Below are positions 3,738-57,322 of a stretch of DNA of 64,000 nucleotides, piece after piece. A program made the position numbers and the translations under genes. Every line of letters starts with the position of its first letter. Positions within the stretch are counted from its first letter, which is position 1. Location: contig CADADN010000006.1 in NCBI GenBank assembly GCA_902786665.1, positions 1-64,000 of the forward strand, written 5' to 3'. The notes beneath the pieces are model-generated. The model searched no databases. It saw only the letters and a list, made by a program, of their open reading frames with translations, and was not told the DNA's origin. This DNA is from an uncultured Prevotellaceae bacterium (GTDB lineage: Bacteria > Bacteroidota > Bacteroidia > Bacteroidales > Bacteroidaceae).

Positions 3738-4340
3738 ATGAAGAAGTCTGTTATGTATGGCATGGCATTGTTTGCCTTGGTCCTTTTGGGCATTTCCTTT
3801 GTGCCGACACTGTTCCTCGAAGATGGCGACAGGTTGGCCTGGCAACTGAGCAATTGGGCTTGGATACTTGCCTCGATGCTTATCGCCACCATGGGTATCC
3901 TGTTGGCCATCCGTTTCACAAAAGGAAAACGCGTCCTATGGAAAATAATGGGTTGGTCATGCAGTATCTTATTGTCGGTGGCATGTTTGATTAGTCTTTT
4001 TATCGCAATGGCCTGGCACGACGAAAAAATATGGAGTGACGAAGATTATGTCGTTTATTCGGAATACGACGGCTTTATCGACCCCAACATGTTTGTCCTA
4101 TACAAAAGAGACGGTCTGGTCGACAGGCGTATGTACTATCTGAATGGCATCGGTTTCGATGAATTGAAGGAAGCCGATTATTCAATATACAATGAATCAG
4201 ACCTGATAAAAGAAGAGATTGACGCGACGGAATTTGAAAGCAGCAGCGTCTATCATCGTACTGTATTTTATAGATTAAGTGATGGATGTCAATTCAAACA
4301 AGAAGAGAACGATTCGCTTATGAAAGTGATAAAGCATTAG
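3738..4340 (+). CDS. Hypothetical membrane protein
   Basis: 200 aa. Three hydrophobic helices occupy about residues 8-27, 38-60 and 70-92; the remaining hundred residues are soluble, acidic and rich in Tyr and Asp (WSDEDYVVYSEYDGF). The topology suggests an inner membrane protein with a C-terminal domain outside the membrane. No family is recognised. Base composition is closer to the rest of the genome than to the AT-rich block at 1-3000. Confidence 0.6.
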   Translation: MKKSVMYGMALFALVLLGISFVPTLFLEDGDRLAWQLSNWAWILASMLIATMGILLAIRFTKGKRVLWKIMGWSCSILLSVACLISLFIAMAWHDEKIWSDEDYVVYSEYDGFIDPNMFVLYKRDGLVDRRMYYLNGIGFDELKEADYSIYNESDLIKEEIDATEFESSSVYHRTVFYRLSDGCQFKQEENDSLMKVIKH

Positions 4341-4646
4341 ACGTGATTCCGACGATGAAGGAGAATCAAACAACCAAGTCGTCAACATACATTGCAAAAA
4401 CTTCTGCAAATGAAGAAAAGCTAATGAATGTCCACAGATCAAGTGTTTAAAAGAAGATAAAGAAATAGGATGTCCAATTTGTTGTATCATCTTTTAATCA
4501 AAGACCCCACCCCAGCCCCTCCCCTCGAGGGGAGGGGATATGCGCACCGACTGTTGGACAAGACTTCTTGGCATAGAAAGCGAAACGGAATCTTTATGAA
4601 AGAACAAGTTACAAATTGGACACCTTAATAAAGAAAAAGAGGAAAG
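4341..4646. other. Intergenic region holding a MITE-like candidate
   Basis: No gene. It contains a 12-bp inverted repeat pair at 4471-4482 and 4611-4622 that encloses a central perfect palindrome at 4516-4537, listed separately. Confidence 0.5.
4471..4622. repeat. Inverted-repeat-bounded 152-bp element
   Basis: TGTCCAATTTGT at 4471-4482 is the exact reverse complement of 4611-4622. Near the middle, 4516-4537 is a perfect 22-bp palindrome of C/G runs around CTCGAG with no loop. Terminal inverted repeats with a central hairpin and no reading frame resemble a miniature transposable element or a dispersed intergenic repeat. No clear target-site duplication is seen. Confidence 0.4.
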
Positions 4647-5720
4647 ATGACTATTGTTTCATTCATCATTTTTGGTGTTATTGCCTTGCTCATTGCCATT
4701 GTTCCCGGAATCCCGATACAGGCAAAAGCATACTTCAGATTTACAGTTCTGTCGCTCTTCTGCCTGTCACTGGCAGCATGCAGCGAAGACGACGATGAAG
4801 AAGAGAATCCTCAGAAGGTGGCACGCTGGGAGTGTATCCTGTTTGGCTCATATCCTGCCAACGAGGTGGTCAGCGGCAATTTCAGTGCCGTGGAAGACTA
4901 TGCACTGGAAGAAGGTGATGTGATTGTTGATGCCACGCTCTACACCCTGTTGGAAAATGCCGAGTGGACGGACAACGACACGGAGATTGACGGCAAGCGC
5001 TACCATAGGCTCAACGCCACGGATGCCGTGAGCCATTCCGACAACCGCGCCCAACATTATCGGTGGACGGACACAGAAGCGTGGCACTACTTTGCCTATG
5101 CACCCATCAAATGGCGCATCCTAAAGCAGACGGGCGACAGTGCCTTGCTGCTGGCAGACCGGATGCCCGACACCCATCCTTTCAACGACACCTACACCGA
5201 CACCAGTTGGAGCACCTGCTCCCTGCGCAGATGGTTGAACAGCGAATTCCTCAGCAGAGCCTTCACGGATTCAGAGATGGAAGCCATCGTGGAGACTGAT
5301 GTCAAGAACGCCGCCAATTACTATTTCGGCACTGACTGCGGTCCCGACACGAAAGACCGCGTATTCATCCTCTCCGAAAGTGAAACCTTCTCGTCGCCAC
5401 TGGCCGTAGAGTACGGCTTCAGCAACAGCGACAGCGGAAGCGACCCGGCCCGCCGTTTCCGTTCCACGCTCTATGCGAAGTGCCGGGGAGCCTGGTGGTC
5501 GCCCGTGGAGCGCTATCGCGGTGTCTCTTTCTGGTTCATGCGCTCCATCGGCTATACGAAGGCCAATGTCGTGTATGTCGGTGAGTCGGGCGACACATAC
5601 AACCGTGGCATCGTGGTCACCTGCAACGATGCCGCCGTCCTGCCTGCCATCACCCTCGACCTCTCAAGAGCCGACTATCAGAAAGCCGCACCTGTCTACG
5701 CTACCGATATTCTCAAATAA
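4647..5720 (+). CDS. DUF6273 lipoprotein, copy 1
   Basis: 357 aa. A lipobox (LSLAAC, Cys about residue 45) is followed by an acidic linker and then a DUF6273 domain: FGSYPANEVV about 67-76, YAPIKWRIL about 151-159, a LRRWLNSEF segment about 192-200 and RRFRSTLYAKCRGAWW about 271-286. The domain is known from many Bacteroidetes and Firmicutes surface proteins but has no assigned reaction. The predicted start gives an unusually long pre-lipobox segment with an extra hydrophobic stretch, so a later non-ATG start is possible. Three bases separate it from its paralogue. Confidence 0.75.
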   Translation: MTIVSFIIFGVIALLIAIVPGIPIQAKAYFRFTVLSLFCLSLAACSEDDDEEENPQKVARWECILFGSYPANEVVSGNFSAVEDYALEEGDVIVDATLYTLLENAEWTDNDTEIDGKRYHRLNATDAVSHSDNRAQHYRWTDTEAWHYFAYAPIKWRILKQTGDSALLLADRMPDTHPFNDTYTDTSWSTCSLRRWLNSEFLSRAFTDSEMEAIVETDVKNAANYYFGTDCGPDTKDRVFILSESETFSSPLAVEYGFSNSDSGSDPARRFRSTLYAKCRGAWWSPVERYRGVSFWFMRSIGYTKANVVYVGESGDTYNRGIVVTCNDAAVLPAITLDLSRADYQKAAPVYATDILK

Positions 5721-35882: not shown

Positions 35883-36479
35883 ATGATAAAGACGAGAGAA
35901 GATCTGAAATTCTACATCCGTGAAGATGCCAAGCGCAACGACATTGGCTCTTATTGGGGATACTTGCTTCACGTGTTGCTAGGGGGTGAGAACATCCGCC
36001 CCTTCAGGTTCATCCGCTGCATGAGATATTACGAATACCATGTCAACAATTCCGACAATTTCTACCATCGTGTGATGTATTGGTATTATAGGCTGAAACT
36101 CACCAGGATGGGAGCGAAATACAGCATCTGGGTAAAGCCCAACACATGTGGATATGGCCTACGCATCATGCACATTTCCGGTGGCGGCGGAGTAAGGGTC
36201 GCAGCCAACAAAGTAGGGAATTACTGCGGTTTCAACTGCGGCGTAGTGGTGGGCAGAAAGGGTGAGGAAGACTGCAGGCCCTTTATTGGCGACCATGTCG
36301 CCTTCGGCCCCGGCGCCAAGGCATTTGGCAAATTGCACATAGGAAACAACGTGTTTGTCGCCGCCAATGGCGTAGTGACCAAGGACATCCCCGACAATGT
36401 CATCGTCGGTGGAGTCCCTGCCAAAATCATCAAGTACAAGACACCACCAGAGGCAAGGAAAGCCCCTGAAGGACAGTAA
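35883..36479 (+). CDS. Left-handed beta-helix acetyltransferase (CysE/WcaB-like)
   Basis: 198 aa. An N-terminal helical part with a membrane-contacting basic stretch is followed by hexapeptide repeats (about 95-180: IGDHVAFGPGAKAFGKLHIGNN type) and the usual end VVTKDIPDNVIVGGVPAKII. Such enzymes transfer acetyl groups from acetyl-CoA to sugars or serine; with glycosyltransferase neighbours a sugar O- or N-acetyl transfer in polysaccharide synthesis is more likely than cysteine synthesis. Confidence 0.85.
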   Translation: MIKTREDLKFYIREDAKRNDIGSYWGYLLHVLLGGENIRPFRFIRCMRYYEYHVNNSDNFYHRVMYWYYRLKLTRMGAKYSIWVKPNTCGYGLRIMHISGGGGVRVAANKVGNYCGFNCGVVVGRKGEEDCRPFIGDHVAFGPGAKAFGKLHIGNNVFVAANGVVTKDIPDNVIVGGVPAKIIKYKTPPEARKAPEGQ

Positions 36480-36542: not shown

Positions 36543-37478
36543 ATGCGAAAAAAAATTTCCGTTGTCGTCCCGGTATACAATGTGGAGAAGTATGTCGGCA
36601 AGTGCCTGGAATCCATCCTCCATCAGACCATGCAGGACTTTGAGGTCATCGTGGTTGACGACTGTTCTCCCGACGGTTCGATGACGGTGGTGAAGTCTTA
36701 TGCCGACAAGGACCCCCGTTTCAGGATAGTGACCCACGAAGTCAACCGCGGACTGATGCAAGCCCGGAAGTCAGGCTATTCAGTTGCAGAAGGTGAATAC
36801 CTGATGTTCTTGGATAGTGACGACTTTCTGCCTTCCGACGCCATGGAAGCCATGTATGCAGAAGCCTTGCGCACATCCGCCGACGTGGTTTCCGGCGAAC
36901 TCATCCTCTTCTATCCCGAAACAGGAAAGGAAGTGCGCCGCACGTCTTGTCTGAAATACGGAAGCGACAGCATTGCGGTCTACAAGTCGCTCCTATTGTC
37001 GGAATACCACCACAATCTTTGTGGCAAGTTGTTCAAAACCAACATTTTGCAATCATTCGAATACAAGACTTTGGAGCATTTCACCAATGGTGAGGACGGC
37101 TATTTGTTCTATCAGGTCGTGGAGCATGTGAAGGAGGTGGTGCATTTGGAAAAACCGGTATATTATTATCTCCAAAACATGCAATCGTCATCGAAGGTGC
37201 GTCTTGGCGGCAATGCCATACGCAGCATCTGCCTGCTCAACCAGCTGAGGATAGAGATAGCCGACCGCCATCCAGAAATCAAGCCGTATGCTTGCCAACA
37301 AGTGACCCGTGTGCTCAATTTTCTTTACAGCAAAGGCTATGACAAAGACGCCGGGCTCGACTCATACGTCAAGGAATTCGGTTTGTCAGACTATGCAAGC
37401 TTTTCGAGTGCATTCAAGCACCTTCCTTTCGCCCAAGCCTGCAAGGTATTCATAAAAAGGTATTTGCTGAAACGTTAA
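36543..37478 (+). CDS. GT2-family glycosyltransferase
   Basis: 311 aa. GT-A fold with the nucleotide-sugar start ISVVVPVYNVEKYVGKCL, VVDDCSPDGS and the metal-binding LDSDD (about 93-97). The C-terminal part (about 200-311) has no membrane helices, so it acts at the cytoplasmic face on lipid-linked intermediates. Donor and acceptor are unknown. It lies 63 bases behind the acetyltransferase. Confidence 0.88.
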   Translation: MRKKISVVVPVYNVEKYVGKCLESILHQTMQDFEVIVVDDCSPDGSMTVVKSYADKDPRFRIVTHEVNRGLMQARKSGYSVAEGEYLMFLDSDDFLPSDAMEAMYAEALRTSADVVSGELILFYPETGKEVRRTSCLKYGSDSIAVYKSLLLSEYHHNLCGKLFKTNILQSFEYKTLEHFTNGEDGYLFYQVVEHVKEVVHLEKPVYYYLQNMQSSSKVRLGGNAIRSICLLNQLRIEIADRHPEIKPYACQQVTRVLNFLYSKGYDKDAGLDSYVKEFGLSDYASFSSAFKHLPFAQACKVFIKRYLLKR

Positions 37479-37558: not shown

Positions 37559-37590
37559 TTTGGATTATCAGGAGAAAAATTCTATCTTTG
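37559..37590 (+). promoter_or_regulatory. Promoter of the opine dehydrogenase/ATP-grasp unit
   Basis: TTTG (37559-37562), 20-base spacer, TATCTTTG (37583-37590), about 63 bases before the ATG. A strong match that makes the next two genes a separate transcription unit. Confidence 0.65.
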
Positions 37591-37653
37591 CAATTCCTTT
37601 TGAAATAATCAACAAAGACAACATCGAAGTACATAAAGATATCAAACAAGAAT

Positions 37654-38739
37654 ATGAGAATAACAGTAATAGGCAGTGGCAATTCCGGTCTGATACATGC
37701 AGCCAAAATGTATGAGAAAGGTCAGCAAGTGGCCATATTGAAAACCACCTCTAAGGGCAACCTGGATTTTTTCAAGAAAATCAAGCAAGCCGGAGAATAC
37801 GAGGTAGTGGATGAGACATCCGGGGGCAGGCATTTCATAGTAAGGCCCGAGTTAATCACCACGGACGTCAAGGAAGCCATCGATTTTGCCGACATCATAT
37901 TTGTCACCACCATTACCAACCAGCACGAGTCCATTGCCCAGATGATAGCTCCATATGTTCGTGACCATCAAATGATTGTCTTGATACCAGGCTATATGGG
38001 AAGTTTGATTTTCAAACGCTATATCAACAAGCAAGTGGTGTATTGCGAATGGGAAACCACCGCCTACAACGGCAGGATCATGGACAACTCCTTTGTCAGG
38101 ATAACCTTTTACAACCCACGCAATGCCATCTCCGTGCTTCCGCTCTCACACAAGGACGAAGTGTTGGCCACCTTGTCACAATTGTTCGACAACACCCGCT
38201 ATTTCAGGAAGAACATTTTGGAATCAGCCTTGCACAATCCCAACATGATCGTCCATCCGATAGGCATCCTTTTCTCCGTGGCGAGGATAGAATACAGCAA
38301 GGGCGAATATTGGATGTACAAAGAAGGGTATTCGCCTTCCGTCTTGAATGTCATCCAAGCGTTCGACGAATCAAAGAATGCCATTTTGGAAAGATTCGGC
38401 TGCGAACCGTTGAACTATTTCGAGGCAGCAAAATGGCGCAATGAACTCAGTTTGGACATCGATGCCATGGACTCGTTTTGGGAATTCGCCGAGTGCTCCA
38501 ACAAGGGTCCCTCGAAAGTGGACTGCCGCTACATCAACGAGGATGTCCCGATGGGCCTTGGCCTGATTGTCTCCTTGGGCAAGGTGCTCGGCATCGACGT
38601 TTCCATCCAGCAATCGATATTCACCTTGGCAGGTGCTCTGACCCAGAAGGACTTCAGCAAGGGAGCACGCACCATACAGTATCTTTTAGGAAAGGATGAC
38701 GTGACATTTGAAGACATCGCATCGGCCATAGAACAATAA
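37654..38739 (+). CDS. Opine (octopine/nopaline) dehydrogenase-family protein
   Basis: 361 aa, the size of bacterial opine dehydrogenases. An N-terminal Rossmann domain (ITVIGSGNSGLIHAAKM, GxGxxG at 7-12) joins a helical catalytic domain containing HNPNMIVHP (His194, His201), which aligns with the catalytic His region of octopine, nopaline and CENDH enzymes. These enzymes reductively condense an amino acid with an alpha-keto acid using NAD(P)H. Placement in a polysaccharide locus is unusual. The next gene, 21 bases away, is a TupA-like ligase; together they may make and attach an N-(carboxyalkyl) amino acid (inference). Substrates are not readable from the sequence. Confidence 0.8.
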   Translation: MRITVIGSGNSGLIHAAKMYEKGQQVAILKTTSKGNLDFFKKIKQAGEYEVVDETSGGRHFIVRPELITTDVKEAIDFADIIFVTTITNQHESIAQMIAPYVRDHQMIVLIPGYMGSLIFKRYINKQVVYCEWETTAYNGRIMDNSFVRITFYNPRNAISVLPLSHKDEVLATLSQLFDNTRYFRKNILESALHNPNMIVHPIGILFSVARIEYSKGEYWMYKEGYSPSVLNVIQAFDESKNAILERFGCEPLNYFEAAKWRNELSLDIDAMDSFWEFAECSNKGPSKVDCRYINEDVPMGLGLIVSLGKVLGIDVSIQQSIFTLAGALTQKDFSKGARTIQYLLGKDDVTFEDIASAIEQ

Positions 38740-38760
38740 CCAACCATACTGACAAGAACC

Positions 38761-39633
38761 ATGATTTTGGGCGACATTCCTTCACGAGTGGTGATGAAGA
38801 TGAATTTCCTCTTCCCCGACCGTCCCTACCTCAAATTGTTGTATTTCCTCACCATGGGCAAGCGCCTCCACCTGTCGGACCCCAAGACGATGAATGAGAA
38901 ACTCCAATGGCTGAAGTTGGCTCAACGCGACCCGCTTCTGACCTCATTGGTGGACAAGCTGACCGTGAAAGAGCATGTCGCCAAAGCCATCGGGAGGAAA
39001 TATGTGTGCCCGTTGCTGGGGGTATGGGACAGTTTCGACGAAATAGACTTCGACACCCTTCCCAACCAATTCGTATTGAAGACCAACCATAGTGGAGGCA
39101 ACATGGGTGTTGTGATATGTGATGACAAGTCACGATTCAACATCAGCGAGGCTCGCAAGAAGCTGAATTCCTCATTGTCGTTCGACATCTATCCCGGCTA
39201 TCGCGAATGGCCTTACAAGAACATCCGCAAGAAGATTTTCGCAGAACAATTCCTTGGTACAGACATCGTCGACTACAAATTCTATTGCTTCAATGGCGAC
39301 GCCGATTGCGTCCTGCTATGCATCGACCGGCAGAAAGGCGACCCCAAGTTTTATTTCTTCAACAAGGATTGGCAGTTGCTTCGTTACAACAAGCGGGGCA
39401 AGGAAGCACCAGAAGGCTTCACTCTTCCCAAGCCCGACAACATGGATGAGATGTTTGCCTTGGCAGCACGAATGTCAAAGGGATTCCCTTTTGTAAGGAT
39501 GGACTTCTACGATGTGAACGGCAAATGCTATTTCGGAGAGTACACGTTCTACCCGGCAAGTGGGTTTGACTTCAATCGTCTGCCGGAGACAGACCGGTAT
39601 TTTGGCGACAAGATAGATTTGAGCCTGGTTTAG
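38761..39633 (+). CDS. TupA-like ATP-grasp ligase
   Basis: 290 aa. The TupA family of ATP-grasp proteins is recognised by KLQWLKL (about 43-49), the glycine-rich loop LKTNHSGGNMG (about 104-114), DYKFYCFNG (about 171-179) and the metal site VRMDFYDVNGKCYFGEYTF (about 245-263). TupA is tied to teichuronopeptide synthesis in Bacillus, where amino acids are amide-linked to a glycan. Here it most likely joins a carboxylate to an amine on a sugar or amino acid. It is the second gene of a two-gene unit with the opine dehydrogenase. Confidence 0.82.
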   Translation: MILGDIPSRVVMKMNFLFPDRPYLKLLYFLTMGKRLHLSDPKTMNEKLQWLKLAQRDPLLTSLVDKLTVKEHVAKAIGRKYVCPLLGVWDSFDEIDFDTLPNQFVLKTNHSGGNMGVVICDDKSRFNISEARKKLNSSLSFDIYPGYREWPYKNIRKKIFAEQFLGTDIVDYKFYCFNGDADCVLLCIDRQKGDPKFYFFNKDWQLLRYNKRGKEAPEGFTLPKPDNMDEMFALAARMSKGFPFVRMDFYDVNGKCYFGEYTFYPASGFDFNRLPETDRYFGDKIDLSLV

Positions 39634-45826: not shown

Positions 45827-45858
45827 TTTGGAGGAAATGAATAAAGTTTGTACTTTTG
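45827..45858 (+). promoter_or_regulatory. Promoter of the sulfatase-fold transferase gene
   Basis: TTTG (45827-45830), 20-base spacer, TACTTTTG (45851-45858), about 20 bases before the ATG at 45878. The earlier start at 45848 overlaps this box. Confidence 0.65.
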
Positions 45859-45877
45859 CACGAAAAAATCAAGTGAT

Positions 45878-47446
45878 ATGAGAAAAATGTTAGACCGTTT
45901 AGCCTTATTCTTTCGTGAGAATTGGAGGCAGATGCTTGTCATCGCCATAGCCGTGGCACTTCCTTCAAGCCTCGCATTGTCTGGCTCCGACAGGAAATAC
46001 GGCTATTTGATAACAGACACCATTTTTGTAATGGGTGCCTTTTTCTTTCTCGCCTCTCAAATAGGCAAATGGGGCAAGATACTGATGCACATGTTCTTTG
46101 CGTTCACGCTATTTGACTTCGGCCTGAGTTTCGGCAGTTACCTTGCCAACTGTCAATTTGTGACCATCGACACGTTCTATCTGATACTTGGCACAAACAA
46201 GGAAGAAGCGTCTGAGTTTTTCGAGTTCTATTTCCCCTTATGGAAAGTGTTGCTGTGGGCAGGCGCCATGTTGTTGGTTTGCATTCTTTACATATGCAAG
46301 CGCCCCAAGCTTCAGCCCTCGATGAAAGTGTCACGCGTGAGCTCCATCGTGTTCCTGGCAGTGGCGGTGTTGTGCTTCCCATCGTTGAAACGTGAAATGC
46401 GCGAATGGTGTGCACGCATCGTACCGTTGAAATATGTTGTCATCGCGAGGATGTATGAGCCTTTTGGCAAGGTGGCAGAGCATCGCCACGACCTCCCATT
46501 GACGGAGACGACAAGCGAGCATCCCGACCACATAGTCATCATCATCGGCGAATCCTTCTCCAAGTCACATTCCTCCATCTACGGATACAAGCGCCCCACC
46601 AACCCGGAACTTTCAGAACTCGCATCCAAAGGACAAATGCTTGTCTTCTCAGATGTCACAGCTCCCGCCCCCTTCACCCACATAGCCTTCAAGAGCATAT
46701 TCTCTTTTGGTGATGGCAACGATTCCGACTGGTATGACCATGACACGTTTTTCGACGTTTTCTGCCAGAAATATTCCACACGATGGATATCCAACCAGAA
46801 AAGCCATGGCATCCACGAGAATGCCCAGGCCACATATGCCGCCCTGTGCGACACCGTATGGTTTGCCTGCCAGCATACGGATGTGGTAAAAACCAACCAG
46901 GACAGTGAACTTCTCCCTACCATCCGAACATTAGCCGACAACGACTCCACCCCGTCCATCACCATCATCAACCTGATGGGTCAGCATGAGGCTTTCAAAT
47001 GGCGTTATCCTGCCGCATGGAAATTTTTCAACCCCGAAGACTACCCCGACTACAAGGAGCACCAACGAGTGTACATGTCCCAATACGACAATGCCACTCG
47101 TTACAACGACCATGTGGTGGCTTCCATCTTCGACATCTACAAGGACAAGGAGGCACTGGTGTTCTATTTTCCCGACCACGGCCTGGACTTGTATGAGACC
47201 GACCCGGACTATTGCGGCCACGTCAGGGAGCCCGTTCAAGCATCATGGGATGTCTGTTGCAAGATACCCTTTTTCATCTACATACCAGAGCGTTACCGGG
47301 CTGCTCACCCTGAGCAGGTGGAGAAGTTGGAGCACTCCGTCGACCATCCTTTCAACACGGGCGACATGATTTACACCCTCATGCAAATCACCGGTTGGAA
47401 TGCCAAAGGCAATGAGCCCAACGGTCGCGGCTTGTTGTTGGAATGA
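45878..47446 (+). CDS. Phosphoethanolamine transferase-like protein (sulfatase fold)
   Basis: 522 aa from the ATG at 45878. Four to five membrane helices (about residues 15-165) precede a periplasmic alkaline phosphatase-fold domain with VIIIGESFSKSHSSIYGY (metal Glu and Ser nucleophile region), HEAFKWRYP, and YFPDHGLDLYE (metal-binding Asp-His). EptA/CptA-type enzymes move phosphoethanolamine from phosphatidylethanolamine to lipid A or glycans. In this locus it may decorate the polysaccharide or lipid A. A phosphoglycerol transferase role cannot be excluded. Confidence 0.85.
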   Translation: MRKMLDRLALFFRENWRQMLVIAIAVALPSSLALSGSDRKYGYLITDTIFVMGAFFFLASQIGKWGKILMHMFFAFTLFDFGLSFGSYLANCQFVTIDTFYLILGTNKEEASEFFEFYFPLWKVLLWAGAMLLVCILYICKRPKLQPSMKVSRVSSIVFLAVAVLCFPSLKREMREWCARIVPLKYVVIARMYEPFGKVAEHRHDLPLTETTSEHPDHIVIIIGESFSKSHSSIYGYKRPTNPELSELASKGQMLVFSDVTAPAPFTHIAFKSIFSFGDGNDSDWYDHDTFFDVFCQKYSTRWISNQKSHGIHENAQATYAALCDTVWFACQHTDVVKTNQDSELLPTIRTLADNDSTPSITIINLMGQHEAFKWRYPAAWKFFNPEDYPDYKEHQRVYMSQYDNATRYNDHVVASIFDIYKDKEALVFYFPDHGLDLYETDPDYCGHVREPVQASWDVCCKIPFFIYIPERYRAAHPEQVEKLEHSVDHPFNTGDMIYTLMQITGWNAKGNEPNGRGLLLE

Positions 47447-48918: not shown

Positions 48919-49998
48919 ATGGCGACGGGCAAGACCATACTTTGCTTCATCGAGAGTCTTGAGGCGGGAGGTGCACAAAGGCAACTCATTGCCTTGGCTT
49001 CCTTGCTGAAAGCCAGAGGTTATCGTCCCGTTTTCGTCACTTATCATCCCGATGACTTTTATGCAGAGTCCTTGGACTCGTTGGGCATAGAGCATGTGTT
49101 TCTGAAGTCGGCACAAGGCAAGTTGGCAAGGATAGCAGCATTCTGGAAGACCATCAAATCACATTCCCCCTATTGCGTGGTGTCCTTCTCGGAGTCGGCA
49201 TCGATGATATTGTGCACCCTCCGCCTGTTTCATCGTTTCTTGCTGATTGTCTCTGAGCGGAATGCCACCCATAAGATACGTTTCCGAGAGTGGTTGCGTT
49301 TCCAGTTGTATCGTGCTTCCGACCATGTGGTGTGCAATTCCACTTCGAAATACAATTTTGTAATAGAGCGTGTCCCCCATTTGGCAAAGAAGACCCACGT
49401 CATACACAACTATCTGGACACCAATCTATTCCAACCTATTCACCACGACAAATCCTCCACTGAGAAGCGCTTGTTGGTGGTGGCAAGGATTGCCCCTCAG
49501 AAAAACATGCTGCGCTTCATTGAAGCGCTACGTAAAGTGAGAGACGACGGCTTTTTGCTCACGGTCGATTGGTATGGTCAGCCTACAGAGCCCTACCTGT
49601 CCCGTTGCAAGCGTCAGATGGAGGCGCTTGGCGTATGCGACATCCTTCACATCCACACCCCCACCTCCCATGTGGAAGAATTGTACAGCCAATACGACGG
49701 TTTCTGCCTTCCTTCCACTTATGAAGGTTTCCCCAACGTGATTGGAGAAGCAATGAGTTGCGGCATACTTGTGCTGTGCGGCAACGTATGCGACAACAAT
49801 TACATCGTGGGCGAAGCTTCGGGCAACCTGGTGTTCGATCCGTCAAGCGTCGAAGACATGAAAGAAAAGATAGAGATGTTCTGCAACCTTGGCAAAGAGC
49901 AATTGGAAGCCATTGGCTCGAGCAACCGCAAGAGGGCCCTTGAATTATTCTCTTCCGAAAAATTCGTGAATGCATACCTTCAACTGATGGCCCAATGA
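48919..49998 (+). CDS. GT4-family glycosyltransferase
   Basis: 359 aa from the ATG at 48919; an in-frame GTG at 48856 overlaps the previous gene and adds an untypical tail. GT-B fold with LEAGGAQRQLIALA near the start and the donor-site segment YEGFPNVIGEAMSCG (about 280-294) with the EX7E glutamates. Donor unknown. It overlaps the next gene by 4 bases. Confidence 0.88.
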   Translation: MATGKTILCFIESLEAGGAQRQLIALASLLKARGYRPVFVTYHPDDFYAESLDSLGIEHVFLKSAQGKLARIAAFWKTIKSHSPYCVVSFSESASMILCTLRLFHRFLLIVSERNATHKIRFREWLRFQLYRASDHVVCNSTSKYNFVIERVPHLAKKTHVIHNYLDTNLFQPIHHDKSSTEKRLLVVARIAPQKNMLRFIEALRKVRDDGFLLTVDWYGQPTEPYLSRCKRQMEALGVCDILHIHTPTSHVEELYSQYDGFCLPSTYEGFPNVIGEAMSCGILVLCGNVCDNNYIVGEASGNLVFDPSSVEDMKEKIEMFCNLGKEQLEAIGSSNRKRALELFSSEKFVNAYLQLMAQ

Positions 49999-51035
49999 GC
50001 AAGCATGTGTTTTTCATAGGTCCGTTGGGCAAGGAAGGCGGCATGATAGGTGGCGACAGCCTGAAGAACCTTCATCTCACCCGTCGTCTTCAAAAGTTGT
50101 CTGTTCCTCTCCGGGTCATCGACACGAATGCCTGCAGGCAGTCGTTATGGAAAACTCTTTCAGCCATCATGCAAATGATGCTTCACAGAAAGAGCAAGTT
50201 CATCATCTCTGCGAGTTCTGCAGGAGCCTACAAGCTGCTCAAAGCCATGCGCTTTCTGGGGGTGTCCGACATCATTTACTGGGTAGTGGGTGGTGACTTC
50301 CCCAACTTGCTGATAAGCAATGTATTAAGCATCAAGCCCTATGCCAATGCGAAGCACATCATCGTTGAAGGCAAACGTATGGAAGAAACGCTTCGCATAT
50401 GTGGTCTTGGCAACGTGATGACCCTTCCCAATTTCAAACCCATAGAGTTCGTTCCTCCCAAGAAGCGTACCGACGCCTCACTCCCCGTGAGGTTTGTGTT
50501 CTTGTCTCGGATAGCAGAAGACAAGGGTTGCAGCTACATCAACAAAGCCGCCGGCATTTTGAACAAGAAGGGTTATGCATCGTCCTACACGATAGATTAT
50601 TACGGTTCGATTGCCGATGTCTACAAAGACCGTTTCACTCAAGAGACCGACGCACTCCCCAATGTGGAATACAAAGGTTTCCTTCAATTGCTCGACAAAT
50701 CCAATTATGAAGTGCTGGCGAGCTACGATGTCATATTGTTCCCCACGTTCTTCTATGGCGAAGGATTCGCCGGGATATTCATCGACGCCTTCATCGCCGG
50801 CCTTCCCGTGATAGCCACCGACTGGAGTCTGAACAGCGAGATTGTGAGAGATGGCGAGACCGGAATCATCGTGGAAAACAGGAATGCGGAAAAGTTGGCT
50901 GCCGCCATGGAAAGCCTCATCCTCAACCCGGAGAAAGTCATCGAGATGAGCAAGGCCTGCCAATCTGAATGCATGAATTACGATACCTGCCACGTGGTGA
51001 CCCCCGACCTTTTGAAACGCCTTGATTTGACATAG
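49995..51035 (+). CDS. GT4-family glycosyltransferase
   Basis: 346 aa. GT-B fold with FIGPLGKEGGMIGGDSLKNL at the start, FVFLSRIAEDKG opening the C-terminal domain and the donor site EGFAGIFIDAFIAGLPVIATD. The ATGA overlap with the preceding gene indicates translational coupling. Convergent to the CapA-family gene. Confidence 0.88.
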   Translation: MSKHVFFIGPLGKEGGMIGGDSLKNLHLTRRLQKLSVPLRVIDTNACRQSLWKTLSAIMQMMLHRKSKFIISASSAGAYKLLKAMRFLGVSDIIYWVVGGDFPNLLISNVLSIKPYANAKHIIVEGKRMEETLRICGLGNVMTLPNFKPIEFVPPKKRTDASLPVRFVFLSRIAEDKGCSYINKAAGILNKKGYASSYTIDYYGSIADVYKDRFTQETDALPNVEYKGFLQLLDKSNYEVLASYDVILFPTFFYGEGFAGIFIDAFIAGLPVIATDWSLNSEIVRDGETGIIVENRNAEKLAAAMESLILNPEKVIEMSKACQSECMNYDTCHVVTPDLLKRLDLT

Positions 51036-51102: not shown

Positions 51103-52242
51103 TTATTGTTTTTTCAGTCTGTTCCTGATAAAGTGTGTCAATTTTTCCCTATGCGACTCGCACTCTATCAAATTGAGCATCTTCGGCCATTTCGCCTTGG
51201 GGAAGAGTGTGGGGAGCAGCCTCTTCTCACATAAAGCCTCCATCCATCTTCCAGCATAGGGAGTGAAGAGAGCGTGATAAAGCTCATCCACCCTCTCCAA
51301 GTATTTCAAATACGCTTCCTCCAACGCCTGAGGTGAAGCTATCACCTGATTGATTTGCTTGAGGTTCTCTTCAAACAAGCCCAACTTCTCCCCTTCCATG
51401 AAACGGATGTCGGGTGTTTCCTTGCATTCCACATAAGGAAAAATCTTGAAATCAACCTTCCCAGCATCAAAAGTAAGCCCCACGGCATAACCTTCTTCCC
51501 ATTTCTTGATCCTGCTATTGGGCATTTCCATACATAAGTTCCCCAGACCATAAAAGATAGGTTTTCCTTTGTATGTTTCATAGCCGCTGTAGCAATGTTG
51601 ATGATGATTGACCACGGCGTCAGCCCCGAGGTCAACAAAAAAGCGATAGGTTTCCACCATTCTTGGAGTAGGCATTCCATATCCTTCCACGCCCCCGTGG
51701 ACAATCACCAAGACATGGTCGGCTTTCTCTCTTGCTTCCTTGATGGCATGATACTGTGCAATGGGGTTGAGTGGATTGGCACCTCCCGACACGTTGGTGG
51801 CAATGCTGAACTCATGTTCCGTGCAATTGATGACAGCCAAAGTCTCACCTTTCACCTTCTTGAACAGGGTTGACGAGGCCTCCTTCAAGTTGGCTCCTCC
51901 CCCCACATGGTCCAAATGGTATTTGCCAAGGACATCCAAGGTGGAACTTACCCCGTCATCGCCATAATCATAGAAATGATTGTTGGCCAGGCATGCACAA
52001 TGGAACCCAGCATAAGCCAGCATTTCCACTCCATTGGCATGACAAGCCAAGTGTGGCCCGTTCTTGACTATTGGACAAGGCGTTTGAGGCCAGACGGCGC
52101 ATTCGAAATTGACAAGGTTGAAATCATGGCTTTCACACAATTTCCGCACCTCTCCAAACACCTGTTCATATTGCCTCTCTTCGACCAGTTTCCCCACTCT
52201 TCCCGTAGGCACATAGTCGCCTGCCACAATTATCTTTATCAT
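51103..52242 (-). CDS. CapA-family putative metallophosphatase
   Basis: 379 aa from the ATG at 52242 (frame open to 52329, less likely). CapA/PgsA-type motifs: VAGDYVPTGR, NFECAVW, ANNHFYDYG, HGGVEGYGMPTPRM and FYGLGNL, which together form the dinuclear metal site. The first member was linked to poly-gamma-glutamate capsule synthesis; biochemical roles remain debated. No signal peptide is seen, so it appears cytoplasmic. Its presence in a locus with a TupA-like ligase is suggestive of an amino-acid-decorated glycan, but unproven. Confidence 0.85.
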   Translation of the reverse strand: MIKIIVAGDYVPTGRVGKLVEERQYEQVFGEVRKLCESHDFNLVNFECAVWPQTPCPIVKNGPHLACHANGVEMLAYAGFHCACLANNHFYDYGDDGVSSTLDVLGKYHLDHVGGGANLKEASSTLFKKVKGETLAVINCTEHEFSIATNVSGGANPLNPIAQYHAIKEAREKADHVLVIVHGGVEGYGMPTPRMVETYRFFVDLGADAVVNHHQHCYSGYETYKGKPIFYGLGNLCMEMPNSRIKKWEEGYAVGLTFDAGKVDFKIFPYVECKETPDIRFMEGEKLGLFEENLKQINQVIASPQALEEAYLKYLERVDELYHALFTPYAGRWMEALCEKRLLPTLFPKAKWPKMLNLIECESHREKLTHFIRNRLKKQ

Positions 52243-52326
52243 TGGTTTTCTGTTGATTGATGACTTCAAACGCCATTTCCATCCATGTCGTTTCCTTTCC
52301 AGGATGCATGGTGCCGATAGCGGGTG

Positions 52327-52356
52327 CAAAGTTACCCATTATTCTGTTATTATCAA
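52327..52356 (-). promoter_or_regulatory. Promoter of the CapA-family gene
   Basis: Minus strand TTG (52356-52354), 19-base spacer, TAACTTTG (52334-52327), about 85 bases before the start codon. Confidence 0.5.
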
Positions 52357-56098: not shown

Positions 56099-57322
56099 AT
56101 GAAGATACCCTTCTCTCCCCCATACGTCGACGACAGTGTTGTCAACGAAGTGGTTGATTCGCTCCGCTCAGGATGGATCACCACCGGTCCAAAGGTAAAA
56201 GCACTCGAAAGCGAAGTAATGAAACTAACTGGCACCAAGGCCGCACTTGGCGTCAACTCCTGGACGTCAGGAGCCATCATGATGCTGAGGTGGTTGGGAC
56301 TGAAAGCCGACGACGAAGTCATCATACCAGCATACACCTACTGCGCCACTGCCATGGCTGTGATGTGGGCGGGCGGAAAGGTGGTGATGGTTGACTCTGG
56401 CGAGGACTTCAACATCTCCGTAGATACCATCCGCAAAGCCATCACGCCAAAGACAAAAGCCATCATCCCCGTCGACATCGGTGGATACCCATGCGACTAC
56501 CCAGCCATCATGTCGCTGGTGAAAGAGCCTTCCATATGCCAGATGTACACACCCGAGAATGAAGTCCAATCACGACTGGGACGCATACTGGTGCTCAGCG
56601 ACTCCGCCCATTCACTGGGAGCATGGATCAACGGACGCCACACAGGAAGCGAAAGCGACATCAACGTTTTCTCCCTTCACGCGGTGAAGAACATCACCAC
56701 GGCTGAAGGAGGAATGATTTGCTTCAACCTGCCCGAGCCTTTCGACAACGAGCAACTTTACAAGCAAATGAGACTGATGTCACTCAACTGCCAGACCAAG
56801 GATGCCTTCACCAAGAGCCAGGCAGGCGGTTGGCGCTACGACATCGTGGGAAAAGGGATGAAAACCAACATGGCCGACATCAACGCCGCCATAGGCCTGG
56901 CTCAAATCAGGCAATACGACAAACTCCTTGCCGAGCGCAAACGCATCTTCAATCGCTATGATGAAGCCTTCGCCTCTTGCGACTGGGCCATACTCCCCCC
57001 ATCGAAAAGCAGCACTTTCGAGTGTTCATACCACATATACCCATTACGCGTGAAAGGAGCCACCGAAACACAACGGGATGCCATCATCAGCGAAGTGGCA
57101 CGCAACGAAGTGGTTGTGAACGTGCATTTCGTTCCACTTCCTCTTCTCACCTATTACAAGGAACTGGGTTACGACATCGCCGACTATCCAAAAGCATACC
57201 AGCATTTCGAGCACGAAATCTCCCTGCCCGTGTACCCTCAACTTGACGACGAGAAAGTGGACATCGTCATCAAGGCTGTGAAGAAGGCATATGAGAAGAC
57301 ATGTGCCAGCACTAGCCGATGA
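56099..57322 (+). CDS. DegT/DnrJ/EryC1 sugar aminotransferase
   Basis: 407 aa, PLP-dependent. The N-terminal segment PFSPPYVDDSVVNEVVDSLRSGWITTGPKV is typical of UDP-4-keto-sugar aminotransferases; the catalytic Lys197 lies in FSLHAVKNITTAEGG. It makes an amino sugar nucleotide, for example a 4-amino-4,6-dideoxy sugar. No 4,6-dehydratase other than Gmd is in the window, so the keto-sugar source is either elsewhere or GDP-4-keto-6-deoxymannose (giving perosamine), which cannot be decided. Confidence 0.88.
   Translation: MKIPFSPPYVDDSVVNEVVDSLRSGWITTGPKVKALESEVMKLTGTKAALGVNSWTSGAIMMLRWLGLKADDEVIIPAYTYCATAMAVMWAGGKVVMVDSGEDFNISVDTIRKAITPKTKAIIPVDIGGYPCDYPAIMSLVKEPSICQMYTPENEVQSRLGRILVLSDSAHSLGAWINGRHTGSESDINVFSLHAVKNITTAEGGMICFNLPEPFDNEQLYKQMRLMSLNCQTKDAFTKSQAGGWRYDIVGKGMKTNMADINAAIGLAQIRQYDKLLAERKRIFNRYDEAFASCDWAILPPSKSSTFECSYHIYPLRVKGATETQRDAIISEVARNEVVVNVHFVPLPLLTYYKELGYDIADYPKAYQHFEHEISLPVYPQLDDEKVDIVIKAVKKAYEKTCASTSR

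Follow-up and report, generated by a model that had tools for sequence, protein, structure and literature searches.

The locus described here raises the question of why a gene of the opine dehydrogenase family stands directly ahead of a gene for a TupA-like ATP-grasp ligase, and of whether the two act together on a surface glycan. An earlier note on this DNA had proposed that they do, the pair making an opine and amide-linking it to the glycan. Our answer is that the dehydrogenase probably makes an N-carboxyalkyl amino acid, which the ligase amide-links to a uronic acid of the surface glycan. The pair is real and conserved, and its biochemistry is a well-supported prediction.

Translation and Pfam analysis place both open reading frames where the earlier note had put them, on the + strand and separated by a 21-base gap, in the window (the whole stretch of DNA analysed, 64,000 nucleotides; Table 1). 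The promoter announced ahead of the pair is also found, as a predicted consensus match that starts exactly at 37559. This match, TTTG-N20-TATCTTTG, fits the Bacteroides promoter consensus, and 63 bases separate it from the start codon of the dehydrogenase; the pattern has 4 matches in the window, compared with 0.73 expected from shuffles.

Table 1. Positions, in the window, of the pair, its promoter match and other features of the glycan locus.
Feature	Position	Strand	Details
198-aa protein, acetyltransferase-like by eye, probably where the glycan locus ends on the left	35883..36479	+	
GT2 glycosyltransferase, directly upstream of the pair	36543..37478	+	PF00535, 129 bits
Bacteroidales-type promoter match TTTG-N20-TATCTTTG	37559..37590	+	Consensus match
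Opine dehydrogenase-family gene	37654..38739	+	361 aa; Pfam Octopine_DH
TupA-like ATP-grasp gene (predicted amidoligase)	38761..39633	+	290 aa; Pfam ATPgrasp_TupA
EptA-like gene	45848-47446		Pfam
CapA/PGA_cap gene	51103..52329	-	PF09587, 175 bits
DegT-family aminotransferase	56099-57322		

The surroundings are those of a surface polysaccharide locus, as had been claimed, with glycosyltransferase, acyltransferase, EptA-like and nucleotide-sugar genes recognised by Pfam. The locus includes GT2, Acyl_transf_3, MBOAT, EptA-like, a further GT2 and two GT4 genes (one of the latter, at 49995-51035, assigned by eye), together with CapA/PGA_cap, Wzy_C, DegT and GDP-mannose dehydratase genes. The CapA-family gene had likewise been correctly placed in the same locus as the pair. 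No CapA relative was seen in the other dehydrogenase loci, a weak test because they reach 10 kb from the dehydrogenase and the CapA gene of the window lies ~12 kb away, and there is no sign that CapA belongs to the pair. Between 39658 and 45778, two MBOAT genes, each with a partner-protein gene, form pairs on opposite strands that sequence clustering finds alike (c7/c8), as if an acylation module had been duplicated. To the right of the window, the same glycan locus continues with genes for a UDP-galactopyranose mutase, a LicD-like protein and two ATP-grasp-like proteins (L136:2266-3453 and 3926-5263, contig C6 65265-68262). These two proteins are of the carbamoyl-phosphate-synthase-like kind, with PF15632 just below and PF02222 just above the cut-off, and a 533-aa protein encoded ahead of them has no Pfam or NCBIfam match. 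The two genes could be the real partners of the dehydrogenase.

The dehydrogenase of Prevotella sp. RGIG8056 (L031) is 93% identical to that of the window. From a gyrB-like gene (named by eye) through the GT2 gene that follows the EptA-like gene, the gene order in this genome is that of the window, and the GT2 gene upstream of the pair has a counterpart of the same cluster in the same place. The exception is the 198-aa gene, missing from the corresponding place in L031; its product has no Pfam match, and phmmer relates it to an L026 ORF (E 3.5e-11). Because the same gene order is found in L031, the arrangement of the pair is unlikely to be an assembly artefact, despite the 9.67% contamination at which the window genome assembly is rated.

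The window dehydrogenase matches Octopine_DH (PF02317) with an E-value of 4.8e-30 and 105 bits (Pfam cut-off 30). Its N-terminal Rossmann region gives ApbA and F420_oxidored matches within residues 2-111, and the protein has the two-domain fold of opine dehydrogenases. The motifs reported earlier, GxGxxG at residues 7-12 and HNPNMIVHP at 194-202, are read directly from the translation. Of the two histidines that had been singled out in the latter, only His201 aligns with His202 of the Arthrobacter N-(1-D-carboxylethyl)-L-norvaline dehydrogenase (CENDH); His194 aligns with CENDH Thr195 and varies among relatives (25 H, 5 Y and 1 N in 31 sequences). The predicted catalytic residues are thus His201, Arg292 and Asp297, the last two aligning with RYLTED 324-329 of octopine dehydrogenase. 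The catalytic set of octopine dehydrogenase is His212, Arg324 and Asp329, and His212 falls outside the coverage of the sequence alignment. The predicted catalytic His, Arg and Asp are invariant in 31/31 relatives, and the catalytic pocket appears intact by alignment. GEFWMYKE and QHE were set aside as conserved motifs, since the loci had been fetched with these patterns. Neither protein of the pair matches an NCBIfam model above cut-off.

The TupA-like protein matches ATPgrasp_TupA (PF14305) with an E-value of 9.9e-55 and 186 bits (Pfam cut-off 25), over nearly the full profile (positions 1-240 of 241). Its AF2 model has a pLDDT of 92.5. Foldseek finds ATP-grasp enzymes as top matches of this model, mostly D-Ala-D-Ala ligases, with E-values of 1e-6 to 2e-5; among the 50 matches listed, TM (query) ranges from 0.36 to 0.49 and LysX/ArgX stands at rank 13. 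A PDB profile search returned no TupA relative up to an E-value of 1. A characterised precedent is found in Campylobacter jejuni, where, according to the accessible part of PMC11800379, the TupA-like domain Cj1438C amidates GlcA at its C6-carboxylate in a reaction with ATP, serinol-P or ethanolamine-P being the amine. In the L034 genome, a single 621-residue frame carries two TupA domains in tandem (TupA-TupA, G396:C41:115772-117466).

An alignment of three close dehydrogenase homologues, used in a single scan of a genome collection, yielded 43 loci in named genomes, fetched with flanks of at most 10 kb and in some cases lying on short contigs. The adjacency extends beyond this genome: 14 of the 43 loci (L031, L032, L033, L039, L040, L042, L043, L044, L045, L046, L047, L051, L053 and L073) have TupA on the strand of the dehydrogenase and at most two genes from it. 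The two genes are direct neighbours in eight of these, with spacings of -4 to 92 bases, and a Wzx-cluster flippase gene lies between them in the other six, which share one gene order, so that the 14 linked loci are not independent. Three orders are observed: OpDH-TupA, OpDH-Wzx-TupA and TupA-OpDH, the last in L033, L046 and L073. Among the carriers of the pair are Bacteroides fragilis Q1F2 (L053) and Enterococcus italicus (L073). In the former, the locus holds NusG-like, UpxZ, UGDH, Wzx, EpsG, GT2, OpDH, TupA and GT4 genes, followed by Polysacc_synt_2, UDP-GlcNAc 2-epimerase, RmlD-like, GT, epimerase and Glycos_transf_4 genes; the pair sits in an apparently complete capsule locus, the NusG-like gene of which is UpxY. 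Furthermore, the sequence identities of dehydrogenase and TupA correlate across 13 loci (r 0.61), a value reached in 0/5000 permutations. Two scans of viral contigs gave no copies, and plasmids gave 282 records, all below 60% identity and 135 of them from Agrobacterium.

Other ATP-grasp ligases take the place of TupA in several loci. A RimK-like ATP-grasp is encoded by the next gene in 3/43, from Psychrobacter (L052), Photobacterium jeanii (L057) and Capnocytophaga felis (L072), that of L057 being placed by sequence clustering, with only a weak, below-cut-off Dala_Dala_lig_C match in Pfam. A Wzx gene follows the dehydrogenase immediately in 13 of the 43 loci, and in L036 it precedes two ATPgrasp_ST genes, of which L046 and L072 each also have one. 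The NCBIfam matches of the L052 and L072 ligases are below cut-off, and the L036 ligases have none. As far as family assignment goes, the class of the ligase varies and its pairing with the dehydrogenase persists. In 25 of the 43 loci, some of them running into short contig ends and with Pfam applied to chosen neighbours, no ATP-grasp was found within three genes, although additional ligases may have escaped notice. Nine of these partnerless loci are from Bacteroidales (L034, L035, L037, L038, L041, L048, L049, L055 and L058), and the others are L050, L054, L056, with an AMP-ligase-like neighbour below NCBIfam cut-offs, and 13 distant relatives (L059-L071).

Taken as a functional unit, the pair would be a small operon that makes an opine and installs it on the surface glycan. 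In the first step, the amine of an amino acid and a 2-keto acid, most likely pyruvate, would be condensed and the resulting imine reduced with NAD(P)H, yielding an N-(1-carboxyalkyl) amino acid, as suggested by the family and intact active site of the dehydrogenase. In the second, the TupA-like enzyme would activate a carboxylate and join an amine to it as an amide, a chemistry seen elsewhere; the carboxylate would most likely be that at C6 of a uronic acid within the repeat unit, and the amine a primary one left free on the opine. The secondary amine produced by the first step would be a poor nucleophile, which suggests an amino acid with a second amine, a diamino acid such as lysine; the alternatives are that its carboxylate reacts instead or that the ligase comes first. 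The order may indeed be reversed, with the amino acid attached first and alkylated on the glycan afterwards. Wzx would then flip the unit before polymerisation. We thus infer the opine product, the lysine-like amino acid, the uronic acid link and a common substrate of both enzymes. Nothing nearby was recognised as a gene for an unusual amino acid. A glycan of this type is described in the accessible part of PMC10609480, in which Providencia rustigianii O14 carries N-epsilon-(1-carboxyethyl)-lysine in amide linkage on GalA. The proposal of the earlier note is supported in part. Two of the findings that it had named as able to refute it, a lack of adjacency in other genomes and a loss of the key residues, did not materialise, and a TupA-like domain provides an amidation precedent (PMC11800379, accessible part); His194, which it had named, does not align with the catalytic histidine.

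The likely acceptor can be approached through the genes of uronic acid supply. A UDP-sugar 6-dehydrogenase (UGDH), the maker of uronates, is encoded within 8 kb of the opine dehydrogenase in 8 of 26 genomes (L036, L045, L046, L052, L053, L057, L058 and L072). It is present somewhere in all 26 dehydrogenase genomes, a weak criterion for a common family that 13 of 14 controls also possess. The window genome has two UGDH-family genes on another contig (C33) and thus a source of uronic acid for an opine-decorated polysaccharide, an indication equally weakened by how common the family is. In six genomes the two genes of the pair are unlinked (L037, L038, L041, L048, L049 and L055), and in five of them TupA lies within ~15 kb of a UGDH gene. 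At G000:C33:24519-33990, the window genome has a second TupA gene near two UDP-sugar dehydrogenases, a flippase-like gene and a GHMP kinase, in what is probably a second glycan locus.

The ligase could instead activate the carboxylate of the opine itself, for example alanopine, and join it to an amino sugar, a reading that we consider unlikely. Opines carry carboxylates whichever amino acid they are made from, and alanopine on Qui4N exists in Providencia alcalifaciens O35 (PMC10609480, accessible part). The DegT aminotransferase of the window locus also fits, and genes of its cluster are found in L045 and L057, but these are 3 of the 44 loci, window included (divergent members may be missed), as against UGDH near the dehydrogenase in the eight genomes named above. 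In B. fragilis, UGDH stands in the locus and the DegT cluster is unrepresented (over 21 kb, with Pfam on part of it), and the characterised TupA-like domain activates a sugar carboxylate, according to the accessible part of PMC11800379. The presence of UGDH near the dehydrogenase, and in the B. fragilis locus with the pair, favours, though not decisively, a uronic acid rather than an amino sugar as the acceptor.

The link between the two enzymes is also visible at the level of whole genomes. Among the 23 Bacteroidales genomes that carry the dehydrogenase (L031-L049, L051, L053, L055 and L058, with L044 and L047 classed only as Bacteroidetes), 22 have a TupA gene, the exception being L035; the two genes are linked in 13 of these 22, so that the linked cases themselves make up that part of the count. 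Eight of the nine partnerless Bacteroidales loci therefore have a TupA gene elsewhere in the same genome. In an even sample of Bacteroidales, to which L047 and L055 apparently belong as G001 and G120, TupA is found in 29/393 genomes, or 26/390 once the 3 with a close dehydrogenase are removed. The comparison of 22/23 with 26/390 gives a Fisher p of 3e-22, kinship being ignored. Chance neighbourhood is ruled out by this co-occurrence and by the position of TupA, which, wherever present in a fetched stretch, lies at most two genes away on the same strand (14/14). TupA is also present in the Enterococcus genome, and absent from 8/8 other dehydrogenase-bearing genomes searched and from all 12 further Bacteroidales genomes with a dehydrogenase of at most 35% identity. 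Conversely, a clear dehydrogenase was seen in only one of 30 Bacteroidales TupA loci (~1.5 kb flanks), that of the window; L093 has a weak 37-bit match, and in G001 the dehydrogenase lies one gene further from TupA. Judged by these searches, most TupA genes have no dehydrogenase nearby and the co-occurrence is one-directional.

This one-directional pattern, by which TupA needs no opine, and the unlinked genes of the L037-type genomes agree with a second alternative, namely that the two enzymes share a locus and act on separate molecules, with an ordinary amine or amino acid joined by TupA to a uronate as an amide, and a separate glycan substituent or precursor made by the dehydrogenase. The tight spacing in several gene orders and two phyla, the replacement of TupA by other ATP-grasps beside the dehydrogenase, and the co-occurrence in all but one of the 23 genomes argue against it and make it decidedly unlikely. 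It is highly improbable that the dehydrogenase acts on a simple amine (ethanolamine or its phosphate) and an EptA-like transferase adds the product as N-(1-carboxyethyl)ethanolamine-type decorations: N-[(R)-1-carboxyethyl]ethanolamine phosphate occurs in a Proteus mirabilis O-antigen (PMC9630907, accessible part), the locus has an EptA-like gene and the C. jejuni TupA-like domain takes ethanolamine-P (PMC11800379, accessible part), but only the window, L031 and L032 have EptA-cluster genes close to the pair, so that these genes are no general partner, and a secondary amine is a poor TupA substrate.

The joint action of dehydrogenase and ligase on one opine, which we prefer, can be set against the history of the dehydrogenase. 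When 48 dehydrogenases are placed on a tree, the linked members from Bacteroidota and Pseudomonadota form one group together with L050 and L054, both with no recognised glycan linkage; the Bacillota members stand apart. The tree does not separate RimK from TupA partners, and the TupA label changes (as gains or losses) at least 3 times among labelled rows of the 48-row tree, and 4 times, at least 2, on a 31-row tree. The intermixing and the label changes indicate that the ligase partner was gained, lost or swapped several times. Beside the linked group stands a sister group of dehydrogenases found in 10/384 genomes of the Photobacterium order (L126-L135), 41-46% identical to the L057 protein, with one copy interrupted. 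By sequence clustering, none of their neighbours groups with glycan-locus genes. The idea that the whole Octopine_DH family serves glycans was accordingly rejected, given these neighbours, the lack of TupA in the 12 Bacteroidales genomes with a dehydrogenase of low identity, and the distant L059, L061 and L063 genes, which lie near peptide-transporter or MmgE/PrpD clusters. The dehydrogenases of L061, L063, L065 and L067 are near an MmgE/PrpD-cluster gene (Pfam on L061 only), and some also near peptide-transporter clusters; these relatives are perhaps involved in opine breakdown.

Several points weigh against our main reading: the 25 partnerless loci, the many TupA genes with no dehydrogenase nearby, the sister group of the Photobacterium order, by which the family as a whole is not glycan-specific, the position of the uronate genes on C33, the contamination rating of the assembly, and the ATP-grasp-like genes just right of the window. 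A wider claim, that a module of opine dehydrogenase and interchangeable ATP-grasp ligase equips capsules and O-antigens with amide-linked opines across Bacteroidota, Pseudomonadota and Bacillota, appears to us plausible, though short of probable. If true, gut Bacteroidales would have in this module a genetic route to glycans decorated with opines, the UpxY/UpxZ capsule locus of B. fragilis being one case, and gut commensals would join the known producers of opine glycans. Strains with opine-bearing surface glycans could then be predicted from sequence alone, and the chemistry tested using two purified proteins. Charged groups on glycans can act as antigens and as phage receptors.

In the open literature, no paper was found on a pair of opine dehydrogenase and ATP-grasp ligase in a glycan locus. 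The accessible parts of the texts mention opine dehydrogenases in connection with nickel-soil adaptation, in one reference and in a siderophore island, none of them in a glycan locus. New with respect to this literature are the genetic pairing, the swappable ligase and the occurrence in gut Bacteroidales; the kind of decoration itself is known.

Among known systems, CENDH (1bg6) is 27% identical to the window dehydrogenase in a structural alignment, and we know of no glycan role for it. Octopine dehydrogenase (3c7a/3iqd) and the staphylopine, pseudopaline and yersinopine dehydrogenases are 12-20% identical to the window enzyme; they yield free opines or metallophores and have other gene partners. 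The RimK/LysX-like and ATPgrasp_ST ligases that fill the ligase place near the dehydrogenase (L052, L057, L072 and L036) belong to families different from TupA. Cj1438C, likened to the window TupA by description only, is also a TupA-like ATP-grasp of a capsule or glycan locus and makes a uronamide with ATP (PMC11800379, accessible part), but it is fused to a GT2, whereas the window TupA is a standalone protein encoded beside an opine dehydrogenase. Finally, the opine glycans of Providencia O14 and O35 are known as structures; with N-(1-carboxyethyl)-lysine on GalA and alanopine on Qui4N, respectively (PMC10609480, accessible part), they carry the kind of decoration proposed here.
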